DNA of 64,000 nt from contig NC_084592.1 in NCBI RefSeq assembly GCF_033807715.1, forward strand, positions 1,346,501-1,410,500, in the 5' to 3' direction. The notes under the pieces were generated by a model. It made no database searches. It saw only the letters and a program-made list of their open reading frames with translations, and was not told where the DNA came from. The translations under genes were made by a program, and so were the position numbers. Position 1 is the stretch's first letter. Every line of letters begins with the position of its first letter. Source of the DNA: Cololabis saira. Lineage: Eukaryota; Chordata; Actinopteri; Beloniformes; Belonidae. Shown in pieces: positions 3,477 to 58,400 of the stretch.

Positions 3477-3879
3477 GTACAATCTGGCCAAGACTGAACC
3501 CAGCCAACATGGACCTACCACGTAAGGAAGAGGATTTGTGGGATTTTTTTTATGGGGACCAAGTGGCGTTCTACCACCGTACGGTGAAGGGGACGGGGAC
3601 ATGCCCCCAGTTCCGGCCTGTTGCTGTTCCCGAGGTGGTCCCAGACCCACCCCAGTCCCTTCCCCCTTTCTGGGGAACACGCCTGGCTCTGGGTGGGCCC
3701 AGGAGCCTGCAGGCTCAGGGGAGGCAACGACGAAGGCGTCAGCCCCAGCCCCAGCTTGCTCCAGCTCCAGCTCCTGCTCCGGCTCCAGCTCCTGCTCCGG
3801 CTCCTGTTCCAGCTCCAGCTCCAGCTGCTGCTCCGGCTCCTGTTCCAGCTCCAGCTCCTGTTCCGGCTCCCCGCCTCCT

Positions 3880-4290
3880 GGTGCCCCCGGTTCCGGCTCC
3901 CCGCATCCTGTCTGCCCCGGTTCCGGCTCCCTGCATCCTGTCTGCCCCGGTTCCGGCTCCCCGCATCCTGTCTGCCCCGGTTCCGGCTCCCCGCATCCTG
4001 TCTGCCCCTGTTCCGGCTCCCCGCATCCTGTCTGCCCCGGTTCCGGCTCCCCGCATCCTGTCTGCCCCGGTTCTGGCTCCCCGCCTCCTGTCTGCCCCGG
4101 TTCCGGCTCCCCGCCTCCTGTCTGCCCCGGTTCCGGCTCCCCGCCTCCTGTCTGCCCCGGTTCCGGCTCCCCGCATCCTGTCTGCCCCGGTTCCGGCTCC
4201 CCGCATCCTGTCTGCCCCGGTTCCGGCTCCCCGCCTCCTGTCTGCCCCGGTTCCGGCTCCCCGCCTCCTGTCTGCCCCGACTCTTGTTCC
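3880..4290 (+). repeat. 30-bp in-frame minisatellite (ten-residue repeats)
   Basis: About 13 units of GTTCCGGCTCCCCGCATCCT-type sequence, 30 bp each. The period is a multiple of three, so the reading frame survives copy-number change. Variation is mainly CGCATC versus CGCCTC. Confidence 0.9.
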
Positions 4291-4390
4291 TGAGGCGGTC
4301 CCGCAGCCCTCGGTTCCTGAGGCGGTCCCGCCGGTCTCTGTTCTGGAGGTGGTCTCTGTTCCCCTTCCTGAGGCGATCCTGGATGGATCT

Positions 4391-5210
4391 GCCGCAGTCC
4401 CAGACCGACCCCCTGACCAGCCTGCCGCAATCCCAGACCGACCCCCTGACCAGCCTGCCGCAATCCCAGACCGACCCCCTGACCAGTCTGCCGCAGTCCT
4501 AGACCGACCCCCTGACCAGCCTGCCGCAATCCCAGACCGACCCCCTGACCAGTCTGCCGCAGTCCCAGACCGACCCTCTGAGCAGCCTGCCGCAGTCCCA
4601 GACCGACCCCGAGCAGCCTGCCGCAGTCCCAGACCGAACCTCTGACCAGCCTGCCGCAGTCCCAGACCGACCCTCTGACCAGCCTGCTGCAATCCCAGAC
4701 CGACCCCCTGACCAGCCTGCCGCAATCCCAGACCGACCCCCTGACCAGCCTGCCGCAGTCCCAGACCGACCCCCTGACCAGCCTGCCGCAGCCCCAGACC
4801 GACCCCCTGACCAGCCTGCCAAGCTCCCAGACCGACCCCCTGACCAGTCTGCCAAGCCCCCAGACCGACCCCCTGACCAGTCTGCCAAGCCCCCAGACCG
4901 ACCCTCTGACCAGCCTGCCGCAGTCCCAGACCGACCCCCTGACCAGCCTGCCAAGCCCCCAGACCGACCCCCTGACCCGCCTGCCAAGCCCCCAGACCGA
5001 CCCCCTGACCCGCCTGCCAAGCCCCCAGACCGACCCTCTGACCAGCCTGCCAAGCCCCCAGACCGACCCTCTGACCAGCCTGCCAAGCCCCCAGACCGAC
5101 CCTCTGACGAGCCTGCCAAGCCCCCAGACCGACCCCCTGACCCGCCTGCCAAGCCCCCAGACCGACACCCTGACCAGTCTGCCAAGTCCCGAGACCGACC
5201 CCCGGATCCG
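4391..5210 (+). repeat. 33-bp in-frame minisatellite (eleven-residue repeats)
   Basis: About 25 units built on CCCAGACCGACCCCCTGACC, 33 bp each, with variants GCCGCAGTC, GCCGCAATC and GCCAAGCCC. One 31-bp unit near 4605 shifts the frame. Confidence 0.9.
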
Positions 5211-5384
5211 CCTGTTACGCCCCAAGGGCGACCCCCCGAACTGCCTCGTCGGTCTGCCCGGCACCGAGGACGGCCCCCGGAGCCTTGGCCATGTGTTGGC
5301 CGGGGCCCTCCTCCGGGACCCCTCCTCCTGCCCGGGGTGGGGTTTTTTGGGACATCTGGAATCTGTCCCTTGAGGGGGGGGTTC

Positions 5385-9644: not shown

Positions 9645-9738
9645 AAGCATCTGCTAAAAGAAAACATTTAATGAAAAAGGAACCCCGTACTGCCCCAATC
9701 ACCAGCCATTTGCAGGAAAAACCAGCTGCTGTCCCAAC

Positions 9739-11424
9739 TTGAAGCTGCCTTTCCGCAACTCGAATGTGTGCCTGCCCAACAACAAAGCCGTAGCCCTGCA
9801 AAGAGCACATCACCTCATAAAAAGGTTCAAGAAAGACCTGAAGTTCTTTAGTGAGTACAAGGACTTCATGAGCGATGTTATCTCAAAAGGATATGCAGAA
9901 GTGATTCCACAAGATCAGCTGGGACATGAATATGGGAAAGTGTGGTTTGTACCACATCATGGAGTCTATCACCCACTTAAGAAAACCTTACGTGTTGTGT
10001 TTGATTGTGCATCAGCATATGGTGGAACCTCCCTGAACAAGGAACTTTTGCAAGGTCCCGACTTGACAAACTCACTCTTGGGTGTGTTGCATCGATTCCG
10101 CCAGGGCCCCATAGCATTCATGACCGACATCGAAGGAATGTTCCACCAGGTGAAGGTGGCTAGTGAGGATGTCAACTTCCTGCGCTTTCTCTGGTGGCCA
10201 GATGGGGACATCACCAAAGATCTGGTTGAGCACAGAATGACTGTCCACATCTTCGGAGCTGTGTCATCTCCAAGCTGTGCCACATTTGCCCTGTTGAAAA
10301 CAGCTGATGACCACCAAAATGAATACCCACCTGAGGTAGCGAACACCGTTCGACAGAATTTCTACGTTGATGACTGCTTAAAATCTGTCAACACAGTAGA
10401 CCAGGCAACATCACTGTACCAACACCTCACAGAGCTGTGCGCTAAAGGAGGATTCCGCCTCAACAAGTGGGTAAGCAACCATCGGTCTGTCCTGGCTGCC
10501 ATCCCTGAAGATCAACGGGCTAAAGGCGTAAAAACATTGGACCTTGACAAAAACCAGCTTCCCATGGAGAGAGCACTTGGAGCTCAGTGGAACGTGGAAC
10601 AGGACACATTTACCTTCAGCATAGAGGTAAAATCACACTCAGTCACCCGACGTGGTGTCTTGTCCATCGTTAGCTCGGTGTATGACCCTCTAGGTTTCTT
10701 GGCACCGGTTGTACTCCCTGCAAAACAACTCCTGCAAGGCCTGTGCAAGACAAAGCTGGGATGGGACGACCCAGTACCACAAGAAACGGCTCAAGTATGG
10801 CAGAAATGGCTGGACGAGTTACCGCTACTGGATGCATTCAGTATCAACAGAAGCTTTGCACCAAAAGACTTTGGACAAATAATGGCAGCACAGTTGCACC
10901 GTTTCTGTGATGCTAGTGAATCTGGGTATGGTTTGGTGTCTTACCTCCGGCTATCGAACACCAGGGGAGAAGTGAGCGTCGCCTTTGTCACTGGAAAGGC
11001 CAGGGTAGCACCACTGAAGCAAACAACCATACCCAGGTTGGAACTTGCAGCAGCAGTCTTAGCTGCACGCATGGACAAGATGCTGAAAACAGAATTAGAA
11101 CTTTGCAGGGAAAAGTCAGTCTTCTGGACAGACAGCAAGACAGTTCTTCAGTATATTGGCAGCAACACAAAGAGATTCAAAACATACGTGGCAAACAGAG
11201 TCTCCATAATCCGAGAGCTGTCAGAAGTGGAGCAATGGCGGCACATCAGTACCAAACTCAATCCAGCGGATACAGCATCACGTGGTGTGCGGGCGGAAGT
11301 TTTCCTTCGAACCTTGTCGTGGATCAATGGACCATGTTTTCTCTCCAAACCTCAATCACACTGGCCAGGAATACCGAAGTGGATGGTGTTCCTGATGATG
11401 ACCCGGAAGTTAAGGGTGAGATAA
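9739..11424 (+). pseudogene. BEL/Pao pol, part 1: reverse transcriptase and RNase H
   Basis: The frame opens without its own ATG, directly after a stop, and begins LPFRNSN, which is near the start of the BEL reverse transcriptase. Visible landmarks are YHPLKKTLRVVFDCASAYGG, the palm segment FMTDIEGMFHQV, the catalytic box YVDD in QNFYVDDCLKS, and the RNase H motifs RFCDASESGYG and FWTDSKTVLQYI. The upstream aspartic protease is absent. Near 11370-11385 the homologous reading moves to the next frame (…WPGIPK then EVDGVPDDDPEVKG), so a one-base indel breaks the polyprotein. Confidence 0.85.
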
Positions 11425-12986
11425 TTGCCTGTGCTGTGGCGCTGGACGAGAAGGAAAGTCCCACAGGCAAACTCTTGGCCTACTTCTCCAAGTGGACAGA
11501 CCTCACAAGAGCTGTGGCCTGGATACTGAAGTATAGGGAGCTACTGCATCAGCGAAGCAAGCAAAGAAAGCAGACTTCCCCCGAACTCAAAGTAAACCAG
11601 AGAAGTAGCACTTCAAGATTGTCTGTGGATGATCTGAGTGGAGCTGTAAAGGCCATCGTTTGTTTTGTGCAGCGGCAGACGTATCCAGAGGAAATTGAAG
11701 CTTTACAGAAGGGCACTTTGAAGAAAACCAGCCATCTGTTTAGGCTTGACCCTGTGTTGGTCGATGCAGTTTTGAGAGTCGGCGGTAGGTTGAGCAGGTC
11801 TGCTCTTCCTGAAGAGACAAAGCACCCGATGATTCTGCCAAAGAACAGTCATGTCACAAAACTCATTCTGCGTCACATCCATCAGAAGGTTGGTCATGGC
11901 GGCAGAAATCACATGCTGTCTACTCTTCGTCGTCGGTACTGGATACCGCATGCCAACACTGCTGCCAGAGCTGTCATCAGGGAATGTTTGGATTGCCAAC
12001 GACAACGGCAGAAACCTGGTGAGCAAAAGATGTCGGACCTCCCTGTAGACAGAATCACAGCAGACCTCCCACCATTTACATGCGTCGGAGTGGACTACTT
12101 CGGTCCGATGGAAGTGAAAAGAGGCCGAAGCACTGTGAAGAGGTATGGTGTCCTGTTTACATGTTTGACATCTCGTGCAATCCATCTTGAGGTGGCTCAC
12201 ACGTTAAACACTGATTCATGCATAAACGCCATACGGAGGTTTGTCTGTCGCAGGGGTCAGGTCAAAGAGATAAGATCCGACAACGGAACAAACTTTGTCA
12301 GCTCTGACCGTGAACTGAAGCAAGCCGTCAGAGAGTTTAATTTAGACAAGATGCAAGACTCTCTCATGCAAGACGGTATCAAGTGGACCTTCAATCCCCC
12401 ACATGGAGCACACCATGGGGGAGTTTGGGAGCGATTAGTGCAGCAGGTCAAAAGAGTTCTTTGCACAGTGGTAAGGCAGCAAGTGCTGGATGACGAGGCC
12501 TTACATACTGCTTTGTGTGAAGTGGAGGCAGTCTTGAATGACCGCCCTATTACGCCGTCTACCGACGACCCTAATGATCTTGAGGCACTAACCCCAAACC
12601 ACCTTTTGCAGCTAAAAGCAAGACCTCTGATGCCACCTGGCTTGTTTGTAAAGGAAGACCAATACACCCGCAGACGGTGGAGGCAGGTCCAATATATAGC
12701 GGACCTATTTTGGAAAAGGTGGATAATAGAGTACCTTCCGCTCATGCAATCCCGTCAGAAGTGGAACAAGACACGAAGGAGCTTTGCAGTAGGAGACCTG
12801 GTACTTGTCATGGATGAGTCGGCACCCAGGAATTCATGGCCGCTGGGACGGGTCATAGAAACCATCGCAGACTCAAAGGGACTTGTTCGTTGCGTCCGTC
12901 TAAGGACGCAAACAACGGAGCTGGAACGACCCATCACCAAGCTATGTCTTCTGTTGGAAGGGGTGCCTGCTGACGGAGCCTGCTGA
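11385..12986 (+). pseudogene. BEL/Pao pol, part 2: integrase
   Basis: This continues pol in the shifted frame. The integrase zinc-binding motif is visible as HIHQKVGHGG followed by CLDCQRQRQ. The catalytic triad residues are D in CVGVDYFGPM, D in IRSDNGTNF and E in CEVEAVLNDRP. The C-terminal segment (WPLGRVIE..DSKGLVRCVRLRT) matches the BEL integrase tail. The reading ends in the 13-bp array at 12984-12986. Apart from the upstream frameshift this half looks intact. Confidence 0.85.
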
Positions 12987-42587: not shown

Positions 42588-43180
42588 TAGGGGTGGAACA
42601 ATATATGGTGCCACGAGATTTCGCGATACAAAAACGTCACGATACGTGTCGTGGAGGTGACAAACTGTAGCTGATATTGGGTTATTAATATTAATCTATT
42701 GTGTTTACTAGTAACATCCTATTGGTGCAGCGGGATCACGTGACGACCTCGACCCGCGGACCAAAATCTGACTCCGCTCAGAAGAAACTAGTACCGTTTT
42801 GGTCCCGATCACGGGACTCTTGGGGTTTAGAGCTCCAAACTTTTACTTCTAAGGTGAGCATGAATCAATCTTTTTTATGATGTAAAGATTGTGTCGCCCC
42901 CAAAGGTGTGAGGATGAAACGATAACGGGTTCACCTTACGGCCTCAGGCTGGAGCAGGTGAAGCTCTGAGCTCTGTCATAGAGTTTGGGACTTTTCATAG
43001 TTTATTTATTTACTTTAATTTATGTATTTCATTTTAGTTGTTACATTTCTGGAAAAGAAAAAAGTCAAGTCATACATGAGAGAAACTATTCAGTTTGTGA
43101 CAAAATATTATTACTTGTATGAAACTGAAGATTCATAATGCAAACCTGACATTTACTTTTAGTTCAGTTTGTGGAAAATC
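42588..43180. mobile_element. Truncated hAT-type element in dars1
   Basis: It starts TAGGGGTGGAACAATATATG and is the reverse-orientation relative of the element at 39150-40143 (shared TCGTGGAGGTGACAA, TTCATAATGCAAACCTGACA, ACTTTTAGTTCAGTTTGTGG). Its far end is missing, replaced by the array at 43183. Confidence 0.75.
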
Positions 43181-43182
43181 TG

Positions 43183-44279
43183 AGCGGTATCTGAGCGGTA
43201 TCTGAGCGGTATCTGAGCGGTATGTGAGCGGTATGTGAGCGGTATGTGAGCGGTATCTGAGCGGTATCTGAGCGGTATCTGAGCGGTATCTGAGCGGTAT
43301 CTGAGCGGTATCTGAGCGGTATCTGAGCGGTATCTGAGCGGTATGTGAGCGGTATCTGAGCGGTATCTGAGCGGTATGTGAGCGGTATCTGGTATGTGAG
43401 CGGTATGTGAGCGGTATGTGAGCGGTATGTGAGCGGTATGTGAGCGGTATCTGGTATGTGAGCGGTATCTGGTGTCTGGGCGGTATCTGAGCGGTATCTG
43501 AGCGGTATCTGAGCGGTATCTGAGCGGTATGCGAGCGGTATGTGAGCGGTATCTGGTATGTGAGCGGTGTGTGAGCGGTATCTGAGCGGTATGTGAGCGG
43601 TATCTGAGCAGTATCTGAGCGGTATGCGAGCGGTATCTGAGCGGTATGCGAGCGGTATGTGAGCGGTATCTGGTATGTGAGCGGTGTGTGAGCGGTATCT
43701 GAGCGGTATGTGAGCGGTATCTGAGCAGTATCTGAGCGGTATGCGAGCGGTATCTGAGCGGTATGCGAGCGGTATGCGAGCGGTATGCGAGCGGTATGCG
43801 AGCGGTATGCGAGCGGTATCTGAGCGGTATCTGAGCGGTATCTGAGCGGGATCTGAGCGGTATCTGGTATGTGAGCGGTATCTGATGTCTGGGCCGTGTC
43901 TGGGCGGTATCTGAGCGGTATCGGAGCGGTATGTGAGCGGTATCTGGTATCTGAGCGGTATGTGAGCGGTATGTGAGCGGTATGTGAGCGGTATCTGGTA
44001 TCTGAGCGGTATCTGGTGTCTGGGCGGTATCTGAGCAGTATCTGGTATCTGAGCGGTATCTGGTATCTGAGCGGTATCTGGTGTCTGAGCGGTATCTGGT
44101 GTCTGGGCGGGATCTGAGCGGTATCTGAGCGGTATCTGGTATCTGAGCGGTATCTGGTGTCTGGGCGGGATCTGAGCGGTATCTGGTGTCTGGGCGGGAT
44201 CTGAGCGGTATCTGGTGTCTGGGCGGGATCTGAGCGGTATCTGAGCGGTATCTGGTGTCTGGGCGGGATCTGAGCGTAC
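43183..44279. repeat. 11-bp-based array at the dars1 exon h donor
   Basis: About 1.1 kb of TGAGCGGTATC units with TGTGAGCGGTA, TGCGAGCGGTA, GGTGTCTGGGC and GGTATCTGGTA variants, in higher-order blocks. It reaches the splice donor of exon h. On the gene strand the unit CACCAGATACCGCTCAGAT resembles the exon-intron junction CACCAGATCGGTACGCTCAG. The 416-residue minus-strand ORF across it is a by-product. Confidence 0.93.
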
Positions 44280-50352: not shown

Positions 50353-50415
50353 AGCGGCGGACGATGGATGGATGGATGTTATACCATTGCTGTCTATTAT
50401 ATTGTAGTATTATAA

Positions 50416-51852
50416 ACAACTGGATTCCAGACACCGAAATGTGGATTTGTGGTTCCCATTTTGTATCAGGTAATGTTGGATTTTTGGGTAGTTAACGTTA
50501 AACGGTCAAATCATAAAGTTCGGTGTCCTCATCACTTTAATTTCTACAAAAAATCCTGCCTTGAAGTCGGACCAAGCGTCAAGACTTTTGTAAGCCTTCA
50601 AGCTTTACTTCGTGTATTTCCCCGGCGTAGAAATTAAGTACATATAAATATCAGGAAACTGGATTGGTGTCCAAATATTAATGTCCATGGACCACTGGTT
50701 CTTGGTAACTGTACCAAATATTAATGTCCATGGACCACTGGTTCTTGGTAACTGTACCAAATATGAATGTCCATGGACCACTAGTTCTTGGTAACTGTAC
50801 CAAATATTAATGTCCATGGACCACTGGTTCTTGGTAACTGTACCAAATATTAATGTCCATGGACCACTGGTTCTTGGTAACTGTACCAAATATTAATGTC
50901 TATGGACCACTGGTTCTTGGGGTAACTGTACCAAATATTAATGTCCATGGACCACTGGTTCTTGGGGTAACTGTTCCAAATAGTAATGTCCATGGACTAC
51001 TGGTTCTTGGTAACTGTACCAAATATTAATGTCCATGGACCACTGGTTCTTTGTAACTGTACCAAATATTATTGCCCATGGTCCACTGGTTCTTGGGGTA
51101 ACTGTACCAAATATTAATGTCCATGGACCACTGGTTCTTGGTAACTGTACCAAATATTAATGTCCATGGACCACTGGTTCTTGGTAACTGTACCAAATAT
51201 TAATGTCCATGGACCACTGGTTCTTGGTAACTGTACCAAATATTAATGTCCATGGACCACTGGTTCTTGGGGTAACTGTACCAAATATTAATGTCCATGG
51301 ACCACTGGTTCTTTGGGTAACTGTACCAAATATTAATGTCCATGGACCACTGGTTCTTGGGGTAACTGTACCAAATATTAATGTCCATGGACCACTGGTT
51401 CTTGGTAACTGTACCAAATATAATGTCCATGGACCACTGGTTCTTGGTAACTGTACCAAATATTAATCTCCATGGACCACTGGTTCTTGGTAACTGTACC
51501 AAATATTAATGTCCATGGACCACTGGTTCTTGGTAACTGTACCAAATATTAATGTCCATGGACCACTGGTTCTTGGTAACTGTACCAAATATTAATGTCC
51601 ATGGACCACTGGTTCTTGGTAACTGTACCAAATATTAATGTCCATGGACCACTGGTTCTTGGTAACTGTACCAAATATTAATGTCCATGGTCCACTGGTT
51701 CTTGGGGTAACTGTACGGGTCACTGTCAAGTCCAACTGACGCTAATTTAAGCTGATAATCAGCTGTTATCCCGTCTTCTCCACTAGTTGCAGATGTTTTT
51801 ACCACTCAGAGCAGTAAGGTCCAGGGGGGAAGAGACATCAATGCATTCCCTC
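50416..51852 (+). mobile_element. THAP-containing DNA element, copy A, truncated
   Basis: It begins in a THAP-domain exon (NNWIPDTEMWICGSHFVSG, then a GTAATG donor), continues into unique sequence, then the 43-bp array, and ends CATCAATGCATTCCCTC. It is the reverse orientation of copy B at 57333-58507. The start of the THAP exon is missing, replaced by the AT-rich repeat. Confidence 0.7.
50671..51716. repeat. 43-bp minisatellite, copy A orientation
   Basis: About 24 units of CCAAATATTAATGTCCATGG continuing ACCACTGGTTCTTGGTAACTG; a few units carry extra GG before TAACTG. Confidence 0.95.
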
Positions 51853-51983: not shown

Positions 51984-52131
51984 TTGTCTCTGAGTCCCTT
52001 GAAGATCTGCACCATGGTGTCGGTGATGGAGCTGATCACTTCATGGTAGTGGTAGTTGAAGGCCATCTCGATGTCCAGACCCACGAACTCCGTCAGGTGA
52101 CGGTGGGTGTTGGAGTCCTCCGCCCGGAACA
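51984..52131 (-). CDS. dars1: dars1 exon d (class II motif 2)
   Basis: [20 protein letters not shown] continues [12 protein letters not shown] and ends at KGLRD. FRAED...RHL is motif 2, whose arginine contacts ATP and the tRNA end. The acceptor is TTTCCAG; the donor AA|GTAATA is weaker than consensus at the last exon base. 148 nt, 2 nt at each edge. Confidence 0.95.
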
Positions 52132-52773
52132 CTGGAAACATTCACGGTTGAAAATCACTCTCAAAATAAAGTACGTTATATATATAGAATAAGAGAGTAT
52201 TCCTAAATTCAAATGTGCTTAAATTCAGAGATTTAGTGGACCTTAAAACAGTGCAGTTTATGTTTAAAATCAACGATAAAACCCTTCCTGACAGCATTCA
52301 GAAGCTCTTCCAAAGCAGAGTTAGAAATATGAACTATGGGGAACATTTATATTTATATAAATTATTTATATTTATTTATTTATGCCAAAAATGATATATA
52401 TTTTTTTGTATAACACTGACGATTTCCACCTGTACTTTGGGTCATTTGTGTTGTGGAAACTGAAAGGACCAATAAACTAAAATAAGAGTTTGTCAAGGGG
52501 CTTCATTGTTATTTTTCAACCTCAGGTAATGAGGTAACATCTCACGCTGAAGATAATTGAGTCTTAAACAAAAGGAAAACATTTATATTTCAGTTTTCGC
52601 ATGCACGTATATAAACATTTAGCGTTGAACCTTCAACCAATTTCACCTAACTCCTTCAAACGCTTCAACAAGGTAGAAATGAATATTACACAACTCAACA
52701 ATAATGGCATAATGATGGGTGAATGGGAAGATTTGTTTATATGTTCAGAAATGGGCAGCTAATTATATGTGTA

Positions 52774-52777
<4 letters not shown>

Positions 52778-52830
<53 letters not shown>
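52778..52830. repeat. (GT)n microsatellite
   Basis: About 26 GT dinucleotides in the dars1 intron between exons c and d. Confidence 0.96.
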
Positions 52831-52832
<2 letters not shown>

Positions 52833-53560
52833 GTAGATATATACATAGATATAGAGCAGATTGAGTTACGGTAATACAGAGATAGTATGGTGTAAATAAG
52901 TATATTTATATAAATATTTATATGGGCATGTGTGTACAAATATATAGAAATATTCAACTATGTGTATGTATAGGTAAGTGTGAGAGTATAATCATAGTCA
53001 TCGTTAGTTATTATAAATACGTGTTAATAAATGATTAGTGAATGTGAGTAGGATTAAATAAGTTTACACTTCTTCCTACTGCTTTTTGCACATGTAAATT
53101 AAGATATTAAGTGTTAAAGTATGAAATTATTTGCTTTTGTTTTCTTAATTGTTGTTTTTTACATGTACAAGATAAAATAAAATAAAAAAAAAGTGTTTGC
53201 ACAAATGAATGGCTTTACGTTCTTTTGCTAGTGGCTATTATCAGTTACCGGTACTAGATTGTAAGTAAAGCCTTTTGATGATCCAGAGCAAATATACAAC
53301 CTCAGTATGTCAGCGCATGATTGCTTTTTTATTTCATCATGGGTGAGAATCCTATAACAACTCTAAATGTGAGACATGTAGCAGTTGCAGATTGGCCGGG
53401 TTAACGTCCTACAGGCTCAAACCATGAAAGAGTTTGCTGAGTTAGTCAGAGGGGGGCAGTGTTTGCTCAGCTAACACCGAGCTCTGCAGGAACTCCAACA
53501 GTACAAGCCTTACAGTCAAGTCTAGACAAGTTAACAACCTTTGCAATACAACCTTATTGA

Positions 53561-53775
53561 ATATGTGTATCTATCTTTATTAATATTAATATATACTGAT
53601 TTATAGTTATATGTAGATATGTCGTTATATATAGATTTATAGTCATTTTTATGTATATAATTGGAGGTAAATAAATATGAACCAGTGTATATAGAATATC
53701 TACTCTTTATAGTTAATCAAGTATATTGTTATACCATTGCTGTCTATTGCTCTCTATTATATTGCCGTATTATAG
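53561..53775. repeat. AT-rich repeat, copy 2 (uninterrupted)
   Basis: Same sequence as 47730-47969 plus 50376-50410, but here TTGTTATACCATTGCTGTCT is continuous: an empty-site paralogue of the LINE target. Confidence 0.8.
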
Positions 53776-53851
53776 TAAAGTAATGATAATGTAATACATT
53801 AGAATTACTTCTATTATTACATACATAGTAGCACAACTTAACGGGCATTTG

Positions 53852-53958
<107 letters not shown>

Positions 53959-54146
53959 ATATAAAAAGAGAGATATAAGAGTTTCAATAAGCTTACTTAT
54001 AAAACACCCATACCTACTTTAACCTACTTACCATACCTACTTTTTTTTTAAAACTTTTTTGTACTCTTTTTTTAATCATGCATGTTCGAAATAAAATCTT
54101 CAGATCCAATTCCAACCGTCATGTGCAGGTGTAATAAGTAAAACCC

Positions 54147-54796
54147 TCAGCTGGACCCACACAGAACACCTGGTCTAAACTCACCTGGACCCACACAGAA
54201 CACCTGGTCTAAACTCACCTGGACCCACACAGAACACCTGGTCTAAACTCACCTGGACCCACACAGAACACCTGGTCTAAACTCACCTGGACCCACACAG
54301 AACACCTGGTCTAAACTCACCTGGACCCACACAGAACACCTGGTCTAAACTCACCTGGACCCACACAGAACACCTGGTCTAAACTCACCTGGACCCACAC
54401 AGAACACCTGGTCTAAACTCACCTGGACCCACACAGAACACCTGGTCTAAACTCACCTGGGCCCACACAGAACACCTGGTCTAAACTCACCTGGACCCAC
54501 ACAGAACACCTGGTCTAAACTCACCTGGACCCACACAGAACACCTGGTCTAAACTCACCTGGACCCACACAGAACACCTGGTCTAAACTCACCTGGGCCC
54601 ACACAGAACACCTGGTCTAAACTCACCTGGGCCCACACAGAACACCTGGTCTAAAGTCACCTGGGCCCACACAGAACACCTGGTCTAAACTCACCTGGAC
54701 CCACACAGAACACCTGGTCTAAACTCACCTGGACCCACACAGAACACCTGGTTAAAGCTCACCTGGACCCACACAGAACACCTGGTTAACCCTCAC
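54147..54796. repeat. 34-bp array copying the dars1 exon c end and donor
   Basis: Nineteen units of CTCACCTGGACCCACACAGA followed by ACACCTGGTCTAAA. On the gene strand each reads GACCAGGTGTTCTGTGTGGG, TCCAG, then GTGAGTTTA: the exon c terminus plus a 5' splice site. The exon itself supplies the twentieth copy (GGCCCAG|GTGAGG). The unit most distant from the exon has lost the GT (CTCAGCTGG). Confidence 0.95.
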
Positions 54797-54931
54797 CTGG
54801 GCCCACACAGAACACCTGGTCGAAGTCGGCGCAGATGCACATCTGCTTGTAGAGCTGGGGGGACTGGGCCAGGTACGCACTGGTCTTGAAGTAGGAGACC
54901 GTGAACACGTTAGCGCCTCCTTCACTGGCAG
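54797..54931 (-). CDS. dars1: dars1 exon c (aspartate-binding region)
   Basis: It starts [20 protein letters not shown], continues [13 protein letters not shown] and ends [11 protein letters not shown]. The QSPQLYKQ segment is the conserved amino-acid recognition strand of aspartyl-tRNA synthetases. The acceptor is TTCCAG and the authentic donor CAG|GTGAGG. The last 26 or so coding bases plus the donor are the founder-like unit of the 34-bp array that fills the adjacent intron. 2 nt + 44 codons + 1 nt. Confidence 0.95.
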
Positions 54932-57494: not shown

Positions 57495-58010
57495 CAGTTA
57501 CCCCAAGAACCAGTGGTCCATGGACATTAATATTTGGTACAGTTACCCCAAGAACCAGTGGTCCATGGACATTAATATTTGGTACAGTTACCAAGAACCA
57601 GTGGTCCATGGACATTAATATTTGGTACAGTTACCCCAAGAACCAGTGGTCCATGGACATTAATATTTGGTACAGTTACCAAGAACCAGTGGTCCATGGA
57701 CATTAATATTTGGTACAGTTACCAAGAACCAGTGGTCCATGGACATTAATATTTGGTACAGTTACCAAGAACCAGTGGTCCATGGACATTAATATTTGGT
57801 ACAGTTACCAAGAACCAGTGGTCCATGGACATTAATATTTGGTACAGTTACCAAGAACCAGTGGTCCATGGACATTAATATTTGGTACAGTTACCAAGAA
57901 CCAGTGGTCCATGGACATTAATATTTGGTACAGTTACCAAGAACCAGTGGTCCATGGACATTAATATTTGGTACAGTTACCAAGAACCAGTGGTCCATGG
58001 ACATTTATAT
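57495..58010. repeat. 43-bp minisatellite, copy B orientation
   Basis: About 12 units, the exact reverse complement of the array at 50671-51716 (CCAAGAACCAGTGGTCCATG continuing GACATTAATATTTGGTACAGT). Confidence 0.95.
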
Positions 58011-58187
58011 TTGACCACCAATCCAGTTTCCTGATATTTATATGTACTTAATTTCTACGTCGGGGAAATTCACGAAGCAAAGCTTGAAGATACAAAAGTC
58101 TTGACGCTTGGTCCGACTTCAAGGCAGGATTTGTTGGTGAAATTAAAGTGATGAGGACACTGAACTTTATGATTTGACCGTTTAACG

Positions 58188-58400
58188 TTAGCTACCCAAA
58201 AATCCAACATTACCTGATATAAAATGGGAACCAAAAATCCACATTTCAGTGTCTGGAATCCAGTTGTTTCTGTGAATTGCAGCGATCCATTTGTCTCTCT
58301 TAAGCTTATTTTTCGGCAGTCTGTAAAACCATAACTCCGATTTCTTACTAAAGATCGCAGAACAGTTCTTTCCCATTTTAGATGTTTTCCAGTTGCTCAA
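58188..58400 (-). pseudogene. THAP-domain exon of the DNA element, copy B
   Basis: The ORF begins MSNWKTSKMGKNCSAIFSKK. THAP landmarks are ELWFYRLPKNKLKRDKWIAA, the NNWIP turn and the C-terminal GSHF. The cysteine expected before GSHF is phenylalanine here (WIFGSHF) but cysteine in copy A (WICGSHF), so zinc binding is lost. The usual exon end (ISG then GTAATG donor) is kept; no transposase follows. Confidence 0.65.

Follow-up and report, generated by a model that had tools for sequence, protein, structure and literature searches.

How is a 5' splice site chosen when the intron behind it opens with a row of further copies, most of them slightly better? Donor choice among equal neighbours has been studied mostly with two copies; the dars1 gene of Cololabis saira offers seventeen near-perfect donors. 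The sequence-only reading from which we started left two answers, namely that the spliceosome reliably takes the exon-proximal site or that the array tunes dars1 output through NMD. Both were followed up in the window, by which we mean the whole stretch of 64,000 nucleotides analysed here (contig NC_084592.1), and, where stated, in the rest of the genome.

The dars1 gene and its locus

The gene lies on the minus strand, and ten of its exons were found in the window by tblastn with a human DARS1 query. Translation of the central exons gives matches to 6iy6 and 4j15 (E about 1e-111), solved structures of human cytoplasmic Asp-tRNA ligases. Splice sites were placed by hand at GT and AG; with these ends all nine introns in the window are GT-AG, and the joined ten-exon frame, which translates without interruption for 333 codons up to the stop, is thus intact partly by construction. 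Five further stretches 5' of the window match fish DARS1 over residues 53–198. In the 1.146-Gb assembly, dars1 is the single locus found (11 matches, two of them elsewhere at 40% identity, presumably other synthetases). The protein is 96% identical to its best relatives over 333 residues and retains 171 of 172 near-invariant columns, so that similarity and conserved residues both place it within DARS1. dars1 is an essential gene, and a need for correct dosage is assumed. The part of the gene that concerns us is the following.

54797..54931, minus strand: dars1 exon c, 135 nt, ending in phase 1 (..GGC CCA G/) (tblastn with human DARS1, exon map)
52132..54796, minus strand: intron c-d, 2,665 nt, with the array at its 5' end (exon map)
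51984..52131, minus strand: exon d, whose 148 nt are not divisible by 3 (exon map)

Anatomy of the array

Directly after exon c, 34-bp units follow head to tail, each composed of 25 nt of exon edge and 9 nt of intron start.

54151..54796, minus strand: the array, 19 repeats of a 34-bp unit; GT is kept at 18 donors, which read CAG/GTGAGT in 16 cases (unit read-out, TRF, donor scoring)
54797..54821, minus strand: 25-nt exon edge, the exonic part of the 34-bp unit (read-out, matching, translation)
54729..54796, minus strand: the two exon-proximal units, which differ most from the core (AACCAG); GTGAGGGTT opens unit 1 (unit comparison)
54145..54150, minus strand: outermost former donor CTGAGG, followed by GTTTTACTT (read-out, donor scoring)

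An exact 34-bp read-out of the minus strand from 54796 to 54151 bears out the 19 intronic copies first noticed in the sequence alone, and the unit is, as had been claimed, an exon edge joined to its 5' splice site, with the exonic part 25 nt long rather than the "~26" given. TRF reports 19.9 copies of period 34 with 97% matches, the exon's own copy included. The exon ends in ...GGGCCCAG and the intron continues with GTGAGGGTT. Allowing up to three mismatches, the exon edge matches 20 sites in the window, the exon itself and the 19 units, 18 of them perfectly and two with a single mismatch, where 100 shuffles gave an expectation of 0.00; sought in its own intron, the edge of exon c scores 51 against a shuffle maximum of 25 (0/300). 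The 19 units fall into five types: 13 are identical, three are identical to one another with C for one T, and three are singletons. Thus the array starts at the exon end and its units repeat the donor, with GT at 18 of 19 unit ends, as expected of a donor-spanning VNTR. The outer end reads CAG/CTGAGGGTTTTACTT, and the farthest unit has indeed lost its GT, ending in CTGAGG (54150). The GAGGGTT found there is the same as at the authentic donor; the array core has GAGTTTA instead.

The same array in unrelated places would have spoken against a link to the exon. A whole-genome DNA search gave one full match, the window itself, in a search that skips very common words and so leaves uniqueness unproven; of four partial matches (68–76% identity), the three inspected by TRF are different repeats. 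A scan of viral contigs for DNA of relatives gave 0 matches, and a published account of the dars1 array was not met in a literature search beyond whose reach most subscription journals lie.

Strength of the donors

54791..54799, minus strand: authentic donor CAG/GTGAGG, the strongest of the 9 dars1 donors scored (donor scoring)

The 19 intronic units end in 16 GTGAGT, one GTGAGC (54762), one GTGACT (54660), and one dead CTGAGG (54150). Scored with a set of 5'-splice-site frequencies and the U1 5' end, the authentic donor reaches 12.15 bits, the 16 GTGAGT decoys 12.89, GTGAGC 12.08, GTGACT 8.82, and the dead site 1.19, while pairing to U1 amounts to −11.6 kcal/mol for the authentic donor and −11.9 for the decoys. 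The decoys are thus better than the authentic site, as the sequence-only reading had it, but by little (+0.74 bit, −0.3 kcal/mol). The 16 slightly stronger decoys sit 68–612 nt downstream of the authentic donor. In the window, 18 of the 4,464 GT sites on the minus strand reach that of the authentic donor, 17 of them within the stretch formed by the authentic donor and the array, and on the plus strand none of 3,771 does. Secondary structure was considered as a cause of proximal choice and rejected, the predicted accessibility of the authentic 9-mer being lower than that of 13/19 unit ends in one setting and of 19/19 in two others.

Consequences of decoy use

54786..54788, minus strand: TAA reached on read-through of the authentic donor (GGT GAG GGT TAA) (exon map, translation)

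Reading through the authentic donor meets GGT GAG GGT TAA, which translation confirms, and because this stop sits in unit 1, all 18 GT decoys share one end in silico, GEG*. The argument that 34 is 3n+1 is therefore unneeded: the stop in unit 1 also catches those decoys whose extension is a multiple of 3. Among these donors, only the authentic one yields the full-length enzyme. In silico, splicing at the next donor would keep one unit in the transcript and bring a frameshift or stop, the outcome known from ABCA7. For poison-exon autoregulation through NMD, which calls for a conserved junction that brings in a stop, the stop is predicted here from one assembly. Acceptors within the array, and with them recursive splicing, are weak candidates, since its two kinds of AG site have 44–50% pyrimidines upstream, compared with 56–88% for ten true acceptors.

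Probable origin of the array and proposed choice of the first donor

We think it probable that the array is a minisatellite born across the junction of exon c and its intron and that the first donor is chosen by its position. A tandem duplication would have taken in 25 nt of exon and 9 nt of intron and then grown, with the original intron start pushed to the outer end by successive duplications and its GT lost later. This origin is inferred from the anatomy and from the outer end, whose GAGGGTTTTAC context looks ancestral and where GAGGGTT is what an outward-pushed original intron start predicts.

As dars1 is essential and one intact locus was found, the first donor must presumably win often, for a large part of the transcripts, although 16 copies are slightly stronger by the matrix used; this last is the counterpoint to the explanation. 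Neither strength nor predicted accessibility favours the authentic donor, from which we infer that position decides. By exon definition, the upstream acceptor would pair with the first of several near-equal donors, and U1 bound to later copies would be unused surplus. A small fraction of transcripts may retain one or a few units, end in the GEG* stop, and enter NMD, and skipping of exon d (148 nt, frame-shifting) may occur in a length-dependent manner, as in ABCA7. From that analogy we predict unit retention of a few percent, with exon d skipping as the outcome sensitive to array length.

In a designed reporter library (PMC6783452), two consensus donors led to predominant use of the first, and where the strengths were unequal the stronger one dominated; the rule was measured with two donors 2–77 nt apart, as against 17 in dars1. 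By this analogy, first-donor choice in dars1 agrees with the published human systems. Of the two answers initially left standing, reliable proximal choice is the better supported, by a single intact locus, a sole productive donor, PMC6783452, and PMC5954066, and NMD tuning is unsupported. Being essential, found at one locus, and harmless only with its first donor, dars1 would be an extreme case for a first-donor rule.

A substitution within the repeat unit

54816..54818, minus strand: codon CAG (Gln) inside the repeat unit, Lys in 119/119 aligned relatives (alignment; letters checked by translation)

Across the 172 columns with 99% invariance or more, the DARS1 of the window departs at one, where Lys is replaced by Gln (one relative has no letter there); the alignment comprises the best 120 of 7,428 relatives that passed E 1e-60, of 7,994 scored. 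Five solved chains shown at this column have Lys in two cases and Arg in three. When the first 39 of these 120 sequences were compared in turn with all the others, no comparable departure was seen. Four of the 172 near-invariant columns fall in the 25-nt exon edge, and the probability that a single departure lands there by chance is p = 0.023, computed post hoc. The link between the array and this unique amino-acid change is suggestive. All 20 copies, exon and units, carry the CAG codon, and the change would be either older than the array or spread by homogenisation, the sequence being compatible with both. Since the exon edge is itself a minisatellite unit, one can ask here whether repeat homogenisation alters a conserved residue.

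Donor-bearing arrays elsewhere in the genome

A pattern of three closely spaced CAGGTGAGTT has 61+387 matches in the genome, and its reversed form 0+0; these counts are complete, and at least nine distinct arrays are found among the part of the matches listed with their places. By translation, three of the nine start in sense at the donor of an exon. Besides dars1 these are an exon assigned to the AAA-ATPases (Pfam AAA at E 1.2e-6, with PEX6 ranking second in the comparison with solved structures) and one that Pfam places in glycosyl hydrolase 1 at E 4.5e-13. The AAA-ATPase exon edge recurs in its array narrowly (score 22 against a shuffle maximum of 21, 0/300), and recurrence of the glycosyl hydrolase 1 edge is not significant (114/300 shuffles). 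At the AAA-ATPase exon (segment L018, around 1500) the intron starts with three donor copies 26 bp apart, the exon's own included.

Two more of the listed arrays adjoin exon junctions in antisense. One lies at the donor of an LRR-like exon whose Pfam match (E 1.3e-5) falls short of the curated cut-off; homology of the array to the exon is not significant (51/300). The other adjoins the acceptor of an exon that Pfam assigns to a nuclear receptor (E 1.2e-6): the array repeats the last intron bases along with five bases of the exon (0/300), and the exon start alone is not significant there (134/300). For this hormone receptor ligand domain exon (segment L077, around 1850), a minisatellite immediately upstream repeats the acceptor region, polypyrimidine tract included. 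In a further listed array the first donor motif stands, by eye, about 55 nt past a collagen-like reading; the array on C7 has no recognisable exon, that at C2:46.2 Mb lies within a larger repeat block, and the ninth, at C9:1.658 Mb, was left out of the flank inspection.

A pattern of three CAGGTGAGT has 1022+726 overlapping matches, compared with 3+14 reversed. We do not take such raw counts as proof of enrichment, because the off-by-one control CAGCTGAGT is also high (331+45 matches, 376 together, versus 1+10 reversed, coming from few large arrays among the matches listed) and matches are therefore not independent. Nor is adjacency to exons shown to be a special trait of donor arrays: of four distinct control arrays, with flanks partly fetched, two also lie near exon-like readings (by translation), none of the four visibly starting at a junction. 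Minisatellites near exons seem to be common in this genome generally, and what is documented is the recurrence of junction-starting donor arrays, as opposed to their enrichment.

Joined to the substitution, these arrays invite a wider reading in which evolution is concerted between the array and the end of exon c: free of constraint within the intron, the minisatellite would have overwritten or driven the exon edge (Lys to Gln in 20 copies at once), and junctions would seed minisatellites genome-wide. We regard it as rather doubtful; if concerted evolution were true, minisatellites would multiply donor signals and slowly rewrite the ends of exons in this genome.

Alternative explanations for the array

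The array might be a dosage device, in which decoy use diverts transcripts to NMD and array length, or the levels of U1 or SR proteins, set dars1 output. Strong decoys that all lead, where GT is kept, to a premature stop are what such a device would need, and NMD tuning is possible on the sequence. In PMC5954066, total ABCA7 expression drops with VNTR length, but there the unit-retaining isoform is constant with repeat length and the authors exclude it as cause of the drop. Growth of an array, moreover, requires no selection, and the window alone holds many minisatellites; we consider a dosage device unlikely.

Alternatively, the array could leave donor choice unaffected and offer surplus U1 snRNP a place to land, against early polyadenylation or in aid of elongation. 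U1 suppresses intronic polyadenylation, and sixteen CAGGTGAGT sites stand at the head of intron c-d, whose three AATAAA all come after the array, while CAGGTRAGT occurs in 0/8 of the other introns in the window; intron b-c, however, has seven AATAAA yet no such array, and we hold this role to be very unlikely. An assembly artefact, in the array itself or in its length, is highly improbable: 13 identical units of 19 could conceal a wrong copy number, but the flanks are unique, the variant units are graded on the exon side, the contig spans 50.9 Mb, the window has no N, and arrays of similar style occur at other genes.

Other repeats of the window were also noted. An array after exon h (43178–44276) begins at most 4 bases from the exon end and has no GT in 1,099 nt, where 1000 mononucleotide shuffles gave a mean of 27.8 and a minimum of 13. 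This GT-free array, the opposite of that at exon c, may reflect descent rather than selection, its units being non-independent; as to seeding from the junction, its exon part alone is reached by 172/300 shuffles, and a gapped match spans the junction. Two inverted copies of an element with a 43-bp minisatellite lie at 50414–51716 and 57548–58269, in the introns that flank the stretch of dars1 from exon b to exon d; the 25 longest pairs have arms of 156–325 nt that are 96–100% complementary, and by their sequence they could pair so as to favour circular RNA of exons b–d, or editing of dsRNA. About 69 more copies of the 43-bp minisatellite lie upstream in dars1 (segment L016, 3455–6452). Long open frames at 9658–12983 resemble the polymerase and integrase of a retrotransposon, presumably of the Pao/BEL type, and two adjacent long arrays at 3860–5214 have units of 30 bp and 33 bp, both multiples of three.

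Comparison with known systems

The dars1 array is real and mostly explained, with strong decoys and with coding sequence inside its unit. It is a donor-spanning minisatellite of the ABCA7 kind, the VNTR of human ABCA7 intron 18 being its nearest precedent and dars1 the stronger case. That VNTR likewise starts at, and includes, its exon's donor (exon 18), and the reference has 23.7 copies of its 25-bp unit (PMC5954066). Its abnormal products arise from an exon 18 cryptic acceptor, from retention of one unit, and from skipping of exon 19, and only the last increases with VNTR length; the frame-shifting products amount to 14 ± 6 and 2 ± 1%, where we read "respectively" as cryptic acceptor and one-unit retention. 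The unit-retaining isoform is out of frame, and a block of translation raises such transcripts. There are clear differences: the first two bases of the ABCA7 VNTR are the donor GT, and, as far as we saw in the paper, exon sequence is not mentioned as part of its unit, whereas in dars1 coding exon makes up 25 of the 34 bp and the 9-nt donor is perfect in 16 copies. For ABCA7, length polymorphism and splicing were measured (PMC5954066); dars1 is known from the sequence of one assembly.

Three further systems share single traits with dars1. The 8-bp donor duplication rs35854239 of OCT1/SLC22A1 is also a natural duplication of a junction that gives two donors, the new one leading to a frameshift and stop, but with two copies of 8 bp; both donors operate in minigenes, and the alternative form is nearly undetectable in the liver reads of one allele (PMC8137991). 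Where introns are gained by AGGT tandem duplication, one case being a multi-copy 24-bp unit of fission yeast, AGGT-bearing exon copies likewise become intronic, but a new intron arises inside an exon there, whereas in dars1 an existing intron is extended at its donor (cited in PMC4974935). Internal tandem repeats at exon–intron boundaries of human segmental duplications are minisatellites too (mean unit 30 bp) and alter exon–intron structure; unlike dars1, they have a mean of 4 copies, half lie in coding sequence, and some create novel introns (PMC2812944). What is new in dars1 is that the exon edge within the repeat bears the one residue at which the protein, judged from the alignment, differs from its animal relatives among 172 near-invariant positions.
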